Shown piece after piece: positions 46,051-51,522 of a stretch of DNA of 64,000 nucleotides. The stretch is from the NCBI RefSeq assembly GCF_029846275.1, contig NZ_JARVWS010000001.1, forward strand, positions 620,001 to 684,000. Direction: 5' to 3'. The first letter of the stretch is position 1, and each line of letters starts with the position of its first letter. The notes below the pieces were generated by a model that had not been told where the DNA came from, made no database searches, and was given only the letters and a program-made list of their open reading frames with translations. Both the position numbers and the translations under genes were made by a program. This DNA comes from Nocardioides sp. CER19. GTDB lineage: Bacteria > Actinomycetota > Actinomycetes > Propionibacteriales > Nocardioidaceae.

Positions 46051-47030
46051 CCACGATGAAGCTCACGCTCGCCAAGGCCCTCAACGCGGGGCTCCGCAAG
46101 GCGATGGAGGACGACCCGAAGGTCGTCCTGATGGGTGAGGACATCGGCCGGCTCGGCGGCGTCTTCCGCGTCACCGACGGGCTGCAGAAGGACTTCGGCG
46201 AGGACCGGGTCGTCGACTCGCCGCTGGCCGAGTCCGGCATCGTCGGCACCGCCGTCGGCATGGCCCTGCGCGGCTACAAGCCCGTCGTCGAGATCCAGTT
46301 CGACGGCTTCGTCTACCCCGCCTACGACCAGATCGTCACCCAGGTCGCCAAGTTCCACTTCCGCTCCGGCGGGCGGATCCCGATGCCGATGGTCATCCGG
46401 ATCCCCTTCGGCGGCGGCATCGGCGCCGTGGAGCACCACAGCGAGTCGCCGGAGGCGCAGTTCGCGCACACCCCCGGCCTCAAGGTCGTGGCCTGCTCCA
46501 ACCCGGCGGACGCCTATTGGATGATCCAGCAGGCGATCGCCTCGCCCGACCCGGTGATCTTCCTCGAGCCGAAGCGGCAGTACCACGCCGGCGCCGTCGA
46601 GGTGGACCTCGACGCCACGCCCGACCCGCTCTTCACCTCGAAGGTCGCCCGCGAGGGCGACGACGTCACGGTCTGCGCCTATGGCCCGACGGTCGGCGTC
46701 GCCCTCCGTGCCGCCGACGCCGCGGCCGGCGAGGGCCGCTCGCTCGAGGTCATCGACCTGCGCACCCTCTCCCCGCTCGACCTCGGTCCCGTCGAGGAGT
46801 CCGTACGTCGCACCGGCCGCTGCCTCGTCGTCCACGAGGCGCACGTCAACCTCGGCGTCGGTGCGGAGGTGGCCGCGCGGCTCACCGAGTCGTGCTTCTA
46901 CTCCCTCGAAGCGCCCGTGCTGCGCGTCGGCGGGCTCGACACGCCCTACCCGCCCGCCCGGGCCGAGCACCAGTGGCTGCCCGACCTCGACCGTGTTCTC
47001 GACGCCGTGGACAGGAGCTTTGCGTGGTGA
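46047..47030 (+). CDS. 2-oxoacid dehydrogenase E1 beta
   Basis: This 327-residue transketolase-like subunit has VLMGEDIGRLGGVFRVTDGL, DSPLAESGIVGTAVG, EIQFDGFVYPAYDQI and the HHSESPEAQFAHTPGL loop, typical of Bkd/PDH E1 beta. It completes the TPP site with E1 alpha. ATGA overlap with E1 alpha and TGA next to E2 GTG show an operon. Confidence 0.94.
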   Translation: MTTMKLTLAKALNAGLRKAMEDDPKVVLMGEDIGRLGGVFRVTDGLQKDFGEDRVVDSPLAESGIVGTAVGMALRGYKPVVEIQFDGFVYPAYDQIVTQVAKFHFRSGGRIPMPMVIRIPFGGGIGAVEHHSESPEAQFAHTPGLKVVACSNPADAYWMIQQAIASPDPVIFLEPKRQYHAGAVEVDLDATPDPLFTSKVAREGDDVTVCAYGPTVGVALRAADAAAGEGRSLEVIDLRTLSPLDLGPVEESVRRTGRCLVVHEAHVNLGVGAEVAARLTESCFYSLEAPVLRVGGLDTPYPPARAEHQWLPDLDRVLDAVDRSFAW

Positions 47031-48364
47031 CGACGACTGCCCAGGAGTTCAAGCTCCCCGACGTCGGCGAGGGTCTCGTCGAGGCCGAGCTGGTCTCGTG
47101 GCGGGTCGCCGTCGGCGACACGGTGCAGGTCAACGACATCGTCTGCGAGATCGAGACCGCGAAGTCGGTCGTCGAGCTCCCCTCGCCCTACGCCGGCATC
47201 GTCGAGGCGATCCTGGTCGAGGTGGGCACCAACGTCGAGGTCGGCACCCCGATCATCCGGATCGGCAGCGGCGCCCAGCCGAGCGAGTTCGTTCCCGCCG
47301 CTGCGGCGCACACCTCTGCGGACACCTCGTCGGCCGCCGAGGAACCCGCGAGCGACTCGCCCGGGACGCTCGTCGGCTACGGACCCCGCGAGGCGGCGAC
47401 GCAGCGGCGCGCCCGGCGTGCGTCCTCGGCGCGGGCGGGGGGCCAGCAGGCCGCCGCGTCGGGCCCCGTGCTCGCCAAGCCGCCGGTGCGGCTGGCCGCG
47501 CGCGAGGCGGGCATCGACCTGCGGACGGTCACCCCGACCGGCCCGAACGGCGACGTCACCCGCGAGGACCTCGCCGGTGCCGGAGGTCGAGGAGCGAGCG
47601 AGGTCGGTGGTCGAGGAGCGAGCGCCAGCGAGCGCATCGAGGCCCCACCCGTCGTCTACACCGGCCGGGTCACCCGCGAGCCGATCAAGGGCGTGCGCAA
47701 GATGATGGGCCAGGCCATGGCGGCCAGCGCCTTCACCGTTCCGCACGTGACCATCTGGACGACCGTGGACGTCACCGAGACGACGCGTCTGGTCGCGCGG
47801 CTCAAGCAGGACCCGGCGTACGCCGGCGTGCGGGTCAGCCCGCTGCTCGTGCTGGCCCGCGCCTGCGTCGAGGCGCTGCGCACGCACCCGCTGCTCAACG
47901 CGGTGTGGGACGAGCCTGCCCAGGAGGTCGTGCTGCGCCACTACGTCAACCTCGGTGTCGCCGCCGCGACACCGCGCGGCCTGGTCGTGCCCAACATCAA
48001 GGACGCCGACCTGATGAGCGGCCCCGATCTCGGCCGGGCGATCAACGGCCTGACCGACGTCGCCCGCGAGGGGAAGACACAGCCCGCCGAGCAGCAGGGC
48101 GGGACGTTCACGATCACGAACGTCGGCCCGTTCGGCATGGAGGGCGGCACGCCCATCATCAATCCCGGCGAGTCCGCGATCCTGTGCTTCGGCGCGGTGT
48201 CGAAGCGGCCGTGGGTCGTGTCGGCCGACGGGGAGGATCGGCTGGCGGTGCGCGACGTCTGCACGCTGGCGCTGAGCTTCGACCACCGTCACATCGACGG
48301 GGCCACCGGGTCGGCCTTCCTGGCCGACGTCGCCGCCGCGATGCGCGACGGCATCAGCCCCTGA
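47024..48364 (+). CDS. 2-oxoacid dehydrogenase E2 (lipoyl acyltransferase)
   Basis: This 446-residue E2 has one lipoyl domain (about 1-80) with lipoylated Lys47 (EIETAKSVVE), a linker, a peripheral subunit-binding domain (about 145-185; LAKPPVRLAAREAGIDL), and a catalytic domain with FDHRHIDG. AGGAG lies 6 bases before the GTG at 47024; the next codon is a second possible GTG. A dispersed DNA repeat has been built into the linker after the binding domain (GGRGASEVGGRGASASER). No E3 gene is present nearby. Confidence 0.93.
   Translation: MVTTTAQEFKLPDVGEGLVEAELVSWRVAVGDTVQVNDIVCEIETAKSVVELPSPYAGIVEAILVEVGTNVEVGTPIIRIGSGAQPSEFVPAAAAHTSADTSSAAEEPASDSPGTLVGYGPREAATQRRARRASSARAGGQQAAASGPVLAKPPVRLAAREAGIDLRTVTPTGPNGDVTREDLAGAGGRGASEVGGRGASASERIEAPPVVYTGRVTREPIKGVRKMMGQAMAASAFTVPHVTIWTTVDVTETTRLVARLKQDPAYAGVRVSPLLVLARACVEALRTHPLLNAVWDEPAQEVVLRHYVNLGVAAATPRGLVVPNIKDADLMSGPDLGRAINGLTDVAREGKTQPAEQQGGTFTITNVGPFGMEGGTPIINPGESAILCFGAVSKRPWVVSADGEDRLAVRDVCTLALSFDHRHIDGATGSAFLADVAAAMRDGISP
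47585..47645. repeat. Dispersed repeat inside the E2 linker
   Basis: GGTCGAGGAGCGAGCG occurs at 47585-47600 and again at 47609-47624, followed by GCCAGCGAGCGCATCGAGGC. The 24-base step keeps the frame. The same GGTCGAG(G/T)AGCGAGCGCCAGCGAGCG family is seen on the other strand at 49241-49339. Confidence 0.75.
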
Positions 48365-48410
48365 CGGCGCTCAGCCGATCGGAGTGGCTCTCGCTCCGAG
48401 GCCGGGGTGC

Positions 48411-48464
48411 GGGGGTGTCGCTGCGCAGGCGGCACGGCCCGGCGGTTACACCGCTGCGACCCCC
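48411..48464. terminator. Possible bidirectional terminator after E2
   Basis: GGGGGTGTCGC can pair with GCGACCCCC, enclosing a second hairpin GCGGT-TAC-ACCGC. It lies between the convergent E2 and carboxyltransferase genes. No T-tract. Confidence 0.4.
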
Positions 48465-48473
48465 ACCACGCCC

Positions 48474-50060
48474 TCAGGCGTACCGCGCCGCCCGGGCGGC
48501 CGGCGATCCCGGCCCGGCGGCCAGCAGGGCGGCCAGCTCGGCCTCGATCACCCCACCGACCCGGTGGCAGAACTCGTCCGGCTCGTCGGCGGCGTCGGGC
48601 AGCTCGGGGATGATCCGGTCGACGATGCCGCGCCCGGCGAGGTCGACCGCGAGCACGTGCTGGGCACGGGCCATGTCGGCGGCGTGGGTCGTGTCGCCGT
48701 GGACGATCGCCGAGGCGCCCTCCGGCGGCAGCGGCGAGAGCCACGCGTGCTGGGTCGCGACGACCCGGTCCGCGGGGAGGAACGCCAGCGCGCCGCCGCC
48801 GTTGCCCTCGCCGAGCATGAGGCACAGGGTCGGCGCCTGCACCCGCACGAGGCCGTCGATGCAGCGGGCGATCTCGCCGGCCAGGCCGCCGTTCTCGGCC
48901 TCCGGCGAGAGCGCGGCCCCGCGGGTGTCGATGACGGTGAGCACCGGGAGGCCGAGGTCCTCGGCGAGCCGCAGCCCGCGCTGGGCCTCGCGCAGCGCCT
49001 GCGGGCCGAACGCCTGCTGCGCCTGCTCGCGCCGGTCCTGCGCCAGCAGCACGCACGGCGCGTCGCCGAACCGCGCCAGCGCGATGATGAGCGCGGGGTC
49101 GCGCTCGCCCTGCCCCGTGCCATTCAGCGGTACGACGTCAGCGGCCGCGGTCTTCAGCAGCCGGCGCACCCCGGGCCGGTCCGCGCGGCGCGAGCGGGTG
49201 ACCGCGTCCCAGGTCTCGATCGCCGGGGTCTCGATACGCTCGCTGGCGCTCGCTACTCGACCATCGAAGGCACCGCTGGCGCTCGCTACTCGACCATCGA
49301 AGGCATCGCTGGCGCTCGCTCCTCGACCATCGAACGCCTCGCTGGTCGAAGGGCCTGAGTCGCTGGGCGAGGGCGTATCGAGACGGGGACGGCTCTGGAG
49401 GATCGTGAGCGCCCGGTCGAGGATCCCGGCGATCTGCTCGGGCGGCAGGACGGCGTCGATGATGCCGTGCGAGTAGAGGTTCTCCGCGACCTGCACGCCG
49501 GCGGGGAACGGGTGGTCGTTGAGCAGCTCGAACACCTTCGGCCCGAGGAAGCCGAGCAGGGCGCCGGGCTCGCCGACCGTGACGTGCCCGAGCGAGCCCC
49601 ACGAGGCCATCACCCCGCCGGTGGTCGGGTGGCGCAGGTAGACGAGGTAGGGCAGGCCGGCCGCCTTGTGCGCCGAGACCGCCTCGGTGATCCGCACCAT
49701 CTGGACGAACGCCGGGGTGCCCTCCTGCATGCGGGTGCCGCCCGAGGCGGGCGCGGCCAGCAGCGGGAGCCCGTCGGCGGTCGCCCGCTTCACGGCCGCG
49801 ACCAGCCGGTCGGCGGCGTCGCGGCCGATCGAGCCGGCGAGGAACCGGAACTCGCTGACCAGGACGGCCACCCGGCGGCCGAGCATCGTGCCCTCGCCGG
49901 TGAGGACCGACTCGTCGACGCCGGTCCTCTCCTCGGCCGCCTGCAGCTCGGCGACGTACGACTCGGAGAACCCGGCTCTGGCGGGCGGGGTGTCCCAGGA
50001 GATCCAGGAGCCGTCGTCGAGGACCAGGTCGATGAGCTCGCGCGCGGTCAGTCGAGGCAT
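48474..50060 (-). CDS. Fused acyl-CoA carboxyltransferase (AccD-AccA type)
   Basis: This 528-residue carboxyltransferase joins a beta-like (about 1-225; ASGGTRMQEGTPAFVQM, HPTTGGVMASWGSLGHV) and an alpha-like half (about 275-528; GEGNGGGALAFLPADRV). It would transfer carboxyl groups from biotin carrier protein to acetyl-CoA or another acyl-CoA. Between the halves lies an 11-residue repeat (FDGRVASASGA and relatives, three copies) encoded by the DNA repeat at 49241-49339. It converges on the E2 gene. The biotin partners are not in the window. Confidence 0.9.
   Translation of the reverse strand: MPRLTARELIDLVLDDGSWISWDTPPARAGFSESYVAELQAAEERTGVDESVLTGEGTMLGRRVAVLVSEFRFLAGSIGRDAADRLVAAVKRATADGLPLLAAPASGGTRMQEGTPAFVQMVRITEAVSAHKAAGLPYLVYLRHPTTGGVMASWGSLGHVTVGEPGALLGFLGPKVFELLNDHPFPAGVQVAENLYSHGIIDAVLPPEQIAGILDRALTILQSRPRLDTPSPSDSGPSTSEAFDGRGASASDAFDGRVASASGAFDGRVASASERIETPAIETWDAVTRSRRADRPGVRRLLKTAAADVVPLNGTGQGERDPALIIALARFGDAPCVLLAQDRREQAQQAFGPQALREAQRGLRLAEDLGLPVLTVIDTRGAALSPEAENGGLAGEIARCIDGLVRVQAPTLCLMLGEGNGGGALAFLPADRVVATQHAWLSPLPPEGASAIVHGDTTHAADMARAQHVLAVDLAGRGIVDRIIPELPDAADEPDEFCHRVGGVIEAELAALLAAGPGSPAARAARYA
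49241..49339. repeat. Three 33-bp tandem repeats inside the carboxyltransferase gene
   Basis: Units start at 49241, 49274 and 49307 with CGCTGGCGCTCGCTACTCGA (last copy CGCTCCTCGA). Each encodes 11 residues in frame, forming a linker between the two halves. The unit is the reverse complement of the repeat in the E2 gene 1.6 kb away. Confidence 0.85.
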
Positions 50061-50070
50061 GGCGCCGAGG

Positions 50071-51522
50071 TTACCGAGGAGTAGTCGGGCTCATCAGCCA
50101 CTGCTGGAAGAAGGAGGACAGGTCGCGTCCCGTCCGCTGCTCGATCCAGCGCAGGTAGTCGTCGCGTCCCGTGGAGCGCTCCGCGCGGGCCGCCGGCCAG
50201 GCGCGGACCATGCTCCAGAAAGCGTCGTCGCCGATCATCGTGCGGAGCCGCTGCCACATGAACGCCGGGCCGAAGTAGACGTTGAGCTCGGCGAAGCGGT
50301 CCCGCTTGTAGTTGCCCGGCGGACCGTCCGCGCGCCGCGCCCGCCTCTCCTCGCCGGCCCAGCTCGAGAGCGAGTCGCCGGGGGGCAGCTTCCAGTCCTC
50401 GTCCTGCCAGGTGGTCTGGAGATACATGGCCATGCCCTCGTTCATCCACACGTCGCGCCAGTCCGACGGGGTCACCTCGTCGCCGTACCACTGGTGCGCC
50501 ATCTCGTGGACGAGCACGTCGGGGCCGACCGTCTCCGGGTCGTTGCCGAGCGTGATCATCGTCTGCGTCTCCATCCCGCTGCTGCTGTCGACGATCACGA
50601 ACCCGAGCGAGTCGAACGGGTAGGGCCCGAGCCGCTTCTCGAGCCAGTCGAGCAGGGCCGGCGCCCGCTGGAGGTTGCGGAGCAGCTCGGTGTCCCCGAC
50701 AGGGGTCCAGTAGGAGATCGGGACGCCGCTGGAGCTGGTCGCCGTCGTCTCCTGGTAGCGACCCACCGCGAGCGTGACCAGGTACGCCGCCGCCGGCTCG
50801 TCGAGGTGCCAGCTGGTCTCCGTGCGGCCGTCGTCGGTCGACCGGTGCGTGAGCTTGCCGTTGCTGACGCCGACCATGGGGGAGGGCGCGTCGACACTCA
50901 CGTCGTAGCGCGCCTTGTCGGAGGGCTGGTCGTTGACGGCGTACCACGTGAACGCGCCGTAGGGCTCCTGCATCGTCCACAGGCCGCCGTCCGGCTCGAC
51001 GGTGAGCCCGAGGGTCTCGGTGTCCGGACGGTTGGTCGGAGCGGGCGTCGGCGTCGGCGTGCCGGAGTAGTCGAGGACGAGCGTGTAGGCGTGGTCGGCG
51101 ACGACGTCCTGCTGGACGACGAGGTCCTTGCCGGGATGCGTGAACCGCACGCGCCTGCCGTCGAGCGTCACCGCGGTGGGCCTCATCTCGGCGGCCAGGT
51201 CGAGCTGGACGTGGTCGGCGGTGGTGGTCGCGCGGAAGAGGAGCTGCTCGTGACCGGTCAGCACCTTCGCCTCCGGGTCCCAGGAGACGTCGAGCGCGTA
51301 GTGCAGCGCGTCCACCCCGGGATCGCCCACCTCCGGGTAGACGGAGTCCTCGACGGGGGTGGAGCGCGCGTCGGCGTACGCCGCCGGGTCGGGGTTCGCG
51401 GTGACGACCGAGTGCGTGCCCGATCGCTGCCCCGACCGGTCGCTGCCGCCGTCGCAGCCCGCCAGTCCGGCCAGCCCGGGCACCAGCGCCACCGCCAGGG
51501 CGGCGACGACGACGCGTCTCAT
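50071..51522 (-). CDS. M1-family metallopeptidase, lipoprotein
   Basis: This 483-residue protein has a lipoprotein signal (lipobox LAGC, Cys23), an N-terminal beta domain, and a catalytic domain with HEMAH (His339, His343) and Glu362 in WMNEG, the M1 gluzincin zinc site HExxH-x18-E. The exopeptidase GxMEN motif is read as SSGMETQ, so Asn is replaced by Thr in GMET. The ATG overlaps the ECF sigma stop codon (ATGA), so it is cotranslated with the sigma factor. It ends shortly after the catalytic domain and lacks the long helical C-domain of aminopeptidase N. Confidence 0.9.
   Translation of the reverse strand: MRRVVVAALAVALVPGLAGLAGCDGGSDRSGQRSGTHSVVTANPDPAAYADARSTPVEDSVYPEVGDPGVDALHYALDVSWDPEAKVLTGHEQLLFRATTTADHVQLDLAAEMRPTAVTLDGRRVRFTHPGKDLVVQQDVVADHAYTLVLDYSGTPTPTPAPTNRPDTETLGLTVEPDGGLWTMQEPYGAFTWYAVNDQPSDKARYDVSVDAPSPMVGVSNGKLTHRSTDDGRTETSWHLDEPAAAYLVTLAVGRYQETTATSSSGVPISYWTPVGDTELLRNLQRAPALLDWLEKRLGPYPFDSLGFVIVDSSSGMETQTMITLGNDPETVGPDVLVHEMAHQWYGDEVTPSDWRDVWMNEGMAMYLQTTWQDEDWKLPPGDSLSSWAGEERRARRADGPPGNYKRDRFAELNVYFGPAFMWQRLRTMIGDDAFWSMVRAWPAARAERSTGRDDYLRWIEQRTGRDLSSFFQQWLMSPTTPR

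Follow-up and report, generated by a model that had tools for sequence, protein, structure and literature searches.

A shared repeat in two convergent genes

Within the window, by which we mean the whole 64-kb stretch of DNA analysed, two neighbouring and convergent genes carry the same 36-nt repeat. The first, on the + strand (47024..48364), encodes the dihydrolipoyl acyltransferase (E2) of a 2-oxoacid dehydrogenase, in which Pfam places Biotin_lipoyl at residues 8-80, E3_binding at 149-183 and 2-oxoacid_dh at 215-440; residues ~187-207, in the linker between the E3-binding and catalytic domains, are encoded by the repeat. This linker contains a truncated copy, recognised in the sequence as a 24-nt unit (47585..47608, +; GGRGASEV), and a full 36-nt copy (47609..47644, +; a pattern match with 3 mismatches) that encodes GGRGASASERIEA / GRGASASERIEA. 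The second gene, on the - strand (48474..50060), encodes a fused AccD-AccA-type carboxyltransferase according to NCBIfam and Pfam (Carboxyl_trans/ACCA), with accD at residues 13-233 and AccA_sub at 294-525 in the numbering of the slightly longer open reading frame that was scanned, and the repeat lies between its two domains. A full copy identical to the consensus at 36/36 positions in the pattern match (49227..49262, -; GRVASASERIET) is accompanied in the sequence by two truncated copies at 33-nt spacing (49274..49295, -, FDGRVASASGA; 49306..49328, -, FDGRGASASDA), so that the three read FDGRGASASDA-FDGRVASASGA-FDGRVASASERIET in the order of translation. An inverted partner element, GGTCGAAGGGCCTGAGTCGCTGGGCGAGGGCGTATCGAGAC on the + strand (49344..49384), is read as RLDTPSPSDSGPSTS from the - strand; the same inverted pairing occurs at many other loci, and with this partner included the repeat-derived part of the AccD-AccA linker amounts to ~158 nt (52 aa).

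The preliminary description had placed one repeat in the linkers of both adjacent genes, and copies are indeed present in each. It had also given them opposite orientations, which holds for the chromosome strands; gene-wise, both have the same orientation and frame, the direct copies yielding GRGASASERIE in E2 and GRVASASERIET in the carboxyltransferase. Its three carboxyltransferase copies are one full and two truncated; the inverted partner at 49344-49384 had been overlooked. In an AlphaFold model of the carboxyltransferase built from 46 sequences (mean pLDDT 79), residues 235-276 have a pLDDT of ~30-35, below 50, between domains modelled mostly at good confidence, and the linker is accordingly predicted to be disordered. 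A pattern search found no further copies in the 64-kb window beyond those of E2 and the carboxyltransferase. A known RNA family was ruled out by the lack of any Rfam covariance-model match up to E 0.5 across 47000-50100.

The repeat unit and its dispersal

The unit (GGTCGAGTAGCGAGCGCCAGCGAGCGTATCGAGACC, 36 nt) starts with GGTCGAG and ends with GAGACC, with a conserved YCGNT directly 5' and a sharp 3' edge, beyond which the bases show no clear consensus. Its length is exactly 12 codons, and five of its six frames are open. Genome copy numbers come from pattern searches: the 26-nt core, at <=3 mismatches, has 50 matches on four contigs of the 4.69 Mb genome (28 forward, 22 reverse), and because the reversed pattern gave 0 matches in the same genome, the repeat is not a product of chance. 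The genome-wide count, which had been proposed from the window, shows it to be dispersed both within and between genes. Local slippage or tandem duplication alone could produce the tandem 33-nt units of the carboxyltransferase (ACC) and the 24-nt units of E2, but it gives no account of dispersal over four contigs or of one unit in unrelated genes, and is highly improbable. As a complete explanation it is refuted by this dispersal; the tandem truncated copies, which it likely does explain, probably arose later through local duplication.

A gapped pattern retrieves 63 palindromic family members, with many +/- pairs less than 150 nt apart, and the repeat often lies beside an inverted partner to form BIME-like dimers. 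Hence we find what characterizes REP/BIME sequences, a dispersed palindrome of 20-40 nt in tens of copies that frequently forms inverted dimers. In longer variants, the arms are unlike in sequence yet complementary by eye (GCCCTCGC/GCGAGGGC, GCCGTCGC/GCGACGGC, GCCACC/GGTGGC). Compared with shuffled sequences, the z score of folding is -5.35 for an inverted pair and -1.23 for a lone 36-nt unit, a weak hairpin that does no better than many of the shuffles; good folding is restricted to inverted dimers and the longer variants. An automatic consensus fold of these longer variants gave no information, since their stems were disrupted by the way gaps were placed.

The short palindrome, the inverted dimers and the GTAG, GGAG or GCAG within the unit are what one would expect of REP elements in the classic sense, mobilised by a RAYT tyrosine transposase. 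However, the tetranucleotide is internal, with 6 nt separating it from the unit's end, and its second base varies; neither GTAG nor CGTC is found at the unit terminus. Furthermore, a PF01797 (Y1_Tnp) profile search had no hit in 144 Nocardioides genomes, that of the window species included, whereas 5 of 14 control genomes were positive. There is no recognisable Y1/RAYT transposase to act as the mobilising enzyme; RAYT-driven spread was dropped on the absence of PF01797 from the 144 genomes, and we consider it unlikely.

In-frame insertions in conserved genes

The coding frame on either side of 51 repeat clusters of the window species (genome G000) was determined with a codon-usage model for which the window served as training set and in which the repeat peptide itself was not used. 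Approximately 22 of the 51 clusters are read through. The ACC cluster was missed by this automatic test because of its extra tandem copies; once it and the terminal insertions are added, the total of in-gene or gene-end sites is ~27. The carriers are roughly two dozen genes, essential ones among them, and those with NCBIfam names are IleS, Fpg, KdpB, HrpA, CobN, a CobI-CobJ fusion, the error-prone DnaE2, NuoE, NuoG, NuoJ, IcmF and PaaA. Matches above the NCBIfam cut-off include IleS, KdpB, CobN, HrpA, NuoE/G/J, Fpg, IcmF and PaaA, among others, while those of PabB and a glycosyltransferase fall below it. Several unrelated conserved protein genes are therefore interrupted in frame, as by Rickettsia palindromic elements (RPE).

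Judging from the gene sequences, the predicted proteins are lengthened by a scattered repeat in flexible or surface parts. When Fpg is aligned with PDB 1l1t, which we take to be B. stearothermophilus MutM, its insert lies between residues 102 and 105 of the latter, and the IleS insert is in a region with gaps in the alignment to a solved cytoplasmic isoleucyl-tRNA synthetase. Flexible linkers, the targets named in the preliminary description, are hit, but so are loops in conserved domains (Fpg, IleS, KdpB, HrpA) and N- and C-termini. Its reading of a repeat family that extends proteins is supported as largely right, and understated the case.

Two regions of the genome carry several insertions. 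In one nuo (complex I) operon, NuoE, NuoG and NuoJ all have an in-frame repeat (C2:95646, C2:98932-99072 and C2:101949-102092; loci L026, L045 and L013), which in NuoE and NuoJ forms a C-terminal tail directly before the next gene. CobN has three separate in-frame insertions (C3:479765, 480503-480595 and 481556-481660; L031), and the CobI-CobJ fusion, ~18 kb away, has a fourth, a local clustering.

Empty, shared and refilled sites in relatives

The window species sits in Nocardioides near N. terrae, and comparison with sister species, a check suggested at the outset, finds the same linkers without the repeat or with different repeats. At the ACC linker, N. terrae has no repeat (L108), N. turkmenicus and N. 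luteus JCM 3358 have GRAASASERVET, and others of the N. luteus clade have DASADGSDASAD, derived from an unrelated 21-nt repeat. The E2 linker contains other variants of the repeat in several species and in both orientations (L162, L166, L136, L137, L177 and L178; genomes G107 and G088). Junction searches extended the comparison to 19 further sites in three relatives, of which one or more gave no match for KdpB and for part of the CobN sites. IleS of the sister species G006 is shorter by a net 36 nt and has no repeat, and the IleS and Fpg sites are without it in G067/G102, although just one of the empty sites is clean. Sites empty in relatives, another property of RPE-like insertions, thus comprise IleS (G006), Fpg (G067, G102) and ACC (N. 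terrae). Insertions in an acyl-CoA dehydrogenase and a hydantoinase-like protein are shared with relatives; DnaE2, PabB, NuoG and Fpg have different repeats at one site, and in IcmF the repeat occupies comparable positions in two species that are only distantly related.

Any match at all was found in 47 of 144 Nocardioides genomes, with 0 to about 39 copies, and a class-wide draw gave matches in 2 of 114 genera, the second one from another family. In other Nocardioides (G099, G054, G061, G039, G072 and G109; L274-L333) most sampled copies look intergenic, compared with about half of the clusters coding in the window species, and the high coding fraction is therefore particular to the window clade. 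Genomes from another family of the class (G424, G236 and G340; family f37, genus g63) contain the 36-mer unchanged, which suggests that it was transferred horizontally or is very strongly conserved as DNA.

Reading frame and the encoded peptide

Where the repeat lies in a gene, it is read almost always in the same way. In the set obtained without the peptide signature, ~19 of 22 sites of the window species are read as GRVASASERIET and 2 as the reverse-strand phase-0 peptide GLDTLAGARYST or a variant, so that 21 of 22 are in phase 0 in either orientation [binomial probability against five open frames ~4e-11 for the GRVASASERIET frame and ~6e-8 for phase 0, from tallies made by hand from the cluster table with the ACC site added, and assuming independent insertions]. 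Among ~60 clusters sampled in other species few are coding, and the in-frame cases are phase 0 in 7 of 7, two of which were picked for their proximity to E2; in the sister genome G006, every in-frame case gives GRVASASERIET or a peptide very near to it. A hydrophilic peptide would also come from a second open frame (SSSERQRAYRD), of which no clear use is seen, and the preference for one frame hence exceeds simple tolerance.

Consequently, we have to consider that insertion is targeted to codon phase, with the machinery preferring a DNA context found at codon boundaries in GC-rich genes, so that the bias would be mechanistic and not selective. The ~19 of 22 sites in the GRVASASERIET frame, the 21 of 22 in phase 0 and the uniform phase 0 of in-frame cases in G006 and the other species agree with this, but the bases 3' of the unit lack a clear consensus and purifying selection would also yield a frame bias; we give phase-targeting a limited chance, no better than one in several. 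An equally tentative extension would be a selfish orphan element that propagates only in step with the codon phase, either through insertion at codon boundaries or because the 12-codon palindrome has been shaped so that one of its frames does no harm; such an element would build and rebuild inter-domain linkers across Nocardioides lineages.

Selection could also act on the protein, with linker peptides conserved and the similarity in DNA a by-product. In its favour, the peptide is hydrophilic and linker-like. Against this, the same DNA is also found between genes, orthologous linkers differ across species, and nonsynonymous differences are not depleted: relative to the consensus, the 24 coding copies of the window species have 23 nonsynonymous and 7 synonymous differences, with 11 of 24 identical, and the 19 other copies have 32 and 19 by the same count, small numbers that include polymorphic positions of subfamilies. 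Because of this lack of depletion, the peptide does not look conserved. The same peptide maintained through different codons, which had been named as the result that would overturn a DNA-level reading, was not seen; the linkers are unconserved even within Nocardioides, and where a repeat-like peptide recurs in relatives, repeat-like DNA accompanies it. Protein-level conservation was dropped on the differing sister linkers and the undepleted nonsynonymous changes, and can hardly be the explanation.

A probable spread through Nocardioides genomes

The explanation that best accounts for these data, and which we consider very probable, is that Nocardioides genomes are being colonised by a palindromic element of REP/BIME-like type that is non-autonomous, with purifying selection sparing in-frame insertions at permissive sites. 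The element would insert at many places, randomly, and selection would spare those insertions that keep the frame, bring in no stops and lie in disordered linkers, surface loops or termini. Random insertion followed by purifying selection would thus lead to the same permissive sites being hit repeatedly, in other species and by unrelated repeat families. Since the copies diverge, the encoded peptide would appear to be tolerated ballast with no selected function.

A functional BIME-type DNA site, such as a nucleoid, gyrase or recombination signal, may instead be under selection at the DNA level and merely tolerated in genes. Copies that are highly identical in DNA, the 36-mer shared with another family and genus of the class, and the BIME-like pairing all speak for such a site, but with just 47 of 144 Nocardioides genomes matching, at 0 to ~39 copies, and no marked strand bias (28 versus 22), we regard it as rather unlikely, if somewhat less so than movement by RAYT.

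Relation to known palindromic elements

The kind of phenomenon is already known, and its closest precedents are Rickettsia palindromic elements and intragenic REPs. RPEs were reportedly described by Ogata in 2000 and in later work. They are dispersed palindromic repeats of 105-146 bp, inserted in frame in conserved protein genes and confined to the AT-rich, obligate intracellular Rickettsia (PMC2229807, PMC10969869). The Nocardioides repeat is likewise a dispersed palindrome, in frame in conserved genes and without a known dedicated transposase; it differs in its 36-nt unit, its GC-rich free-living soil actinobacterial host and its frequent inverted dimers, and by description (length, composition) is set apart from RPE-1 to RPE-10.

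The other precedent is the intragenic GTAG- and CGTC-tagged REPs of Di Nocera 2013, palindromes of 20-40 bp that form inverted dimers and encode 20-30 aa in frame in DnaE2, tRNA synthetases, RNA helicases and DNA repair genes, with one case, recB, of different REPs at roughly one site (PMC3733652). The short palindrome, the inverted dimers and the in-frame insertion are shared, and the target classes, partly identical, are strikingly similar. However, the Nocardioides element has no terminal GTAG or CGTC tag and its genus no RAYT, and for these reasons we keep it outside the GTAG/CGTC REP superfamilies, although it works like them. A word search of that article's text for Actinobacteria or Nocardioides gave no match. 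REP/BIME sequences of the E. coli type are also short palindromes in inverted pairs and mosaics, but they are essentially intergenic and RAYT-linked, whereas about half of the sites are coding in the window species. ERIC, YPAL and Correia MITEs with ORFs, at 100-200 bp with terminal inverted repeats (PMC2229807), are likewise small mobile repeats in frame in some genes, and are set apart by description. Among the articles searched, nothing relevant turned up for a described Nocardioides repeat or for the repeat sequence, the one 8-mer match being due to chance.

What looks new is the phylum, the strict choice of frame and the re-occupation of the same linkers. In-frame palindromes, reviewed mainly for Rickettsia and proteobacteria, are hereby extended to Actinobacteria. 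With the same linkers and loops empty or filled by different repeats in sister species, they offer a natural replicated experiment on protein insertions from parasitic DNA, in which the essential IleS and the DNA repair enzyme Fpg are included. Such insertions are also length variants that may mislead alignments and domain annotation.

Other repeats at linkers and gene ends

A second repeat, GTGACGCTTCGGCCGACG, is 18-21 nt long, palindromic and tandem, has as many as 92 copies in a single genome of the N. luteus/albus clade (seen in G011, G113, G039 and G072; loci from L334 on) and also encodes a protein linker. The 21-nt repeat has 72 copies in G011, 92 in G113 and 76 in G039, and zero in G000, G006 and G099. 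At the end of NuoE, a palindrome (GGTTTCGACGAGCTCAACC; L026, ~1560-1580) directly follows the 36-nt repeat and may itself be another short repeat. In the sister species G006, the linker of HrpA (L227) contains a different palindrome, CCAAGGGGTC...GACCCCTTGG, possibly from a third repeat family.
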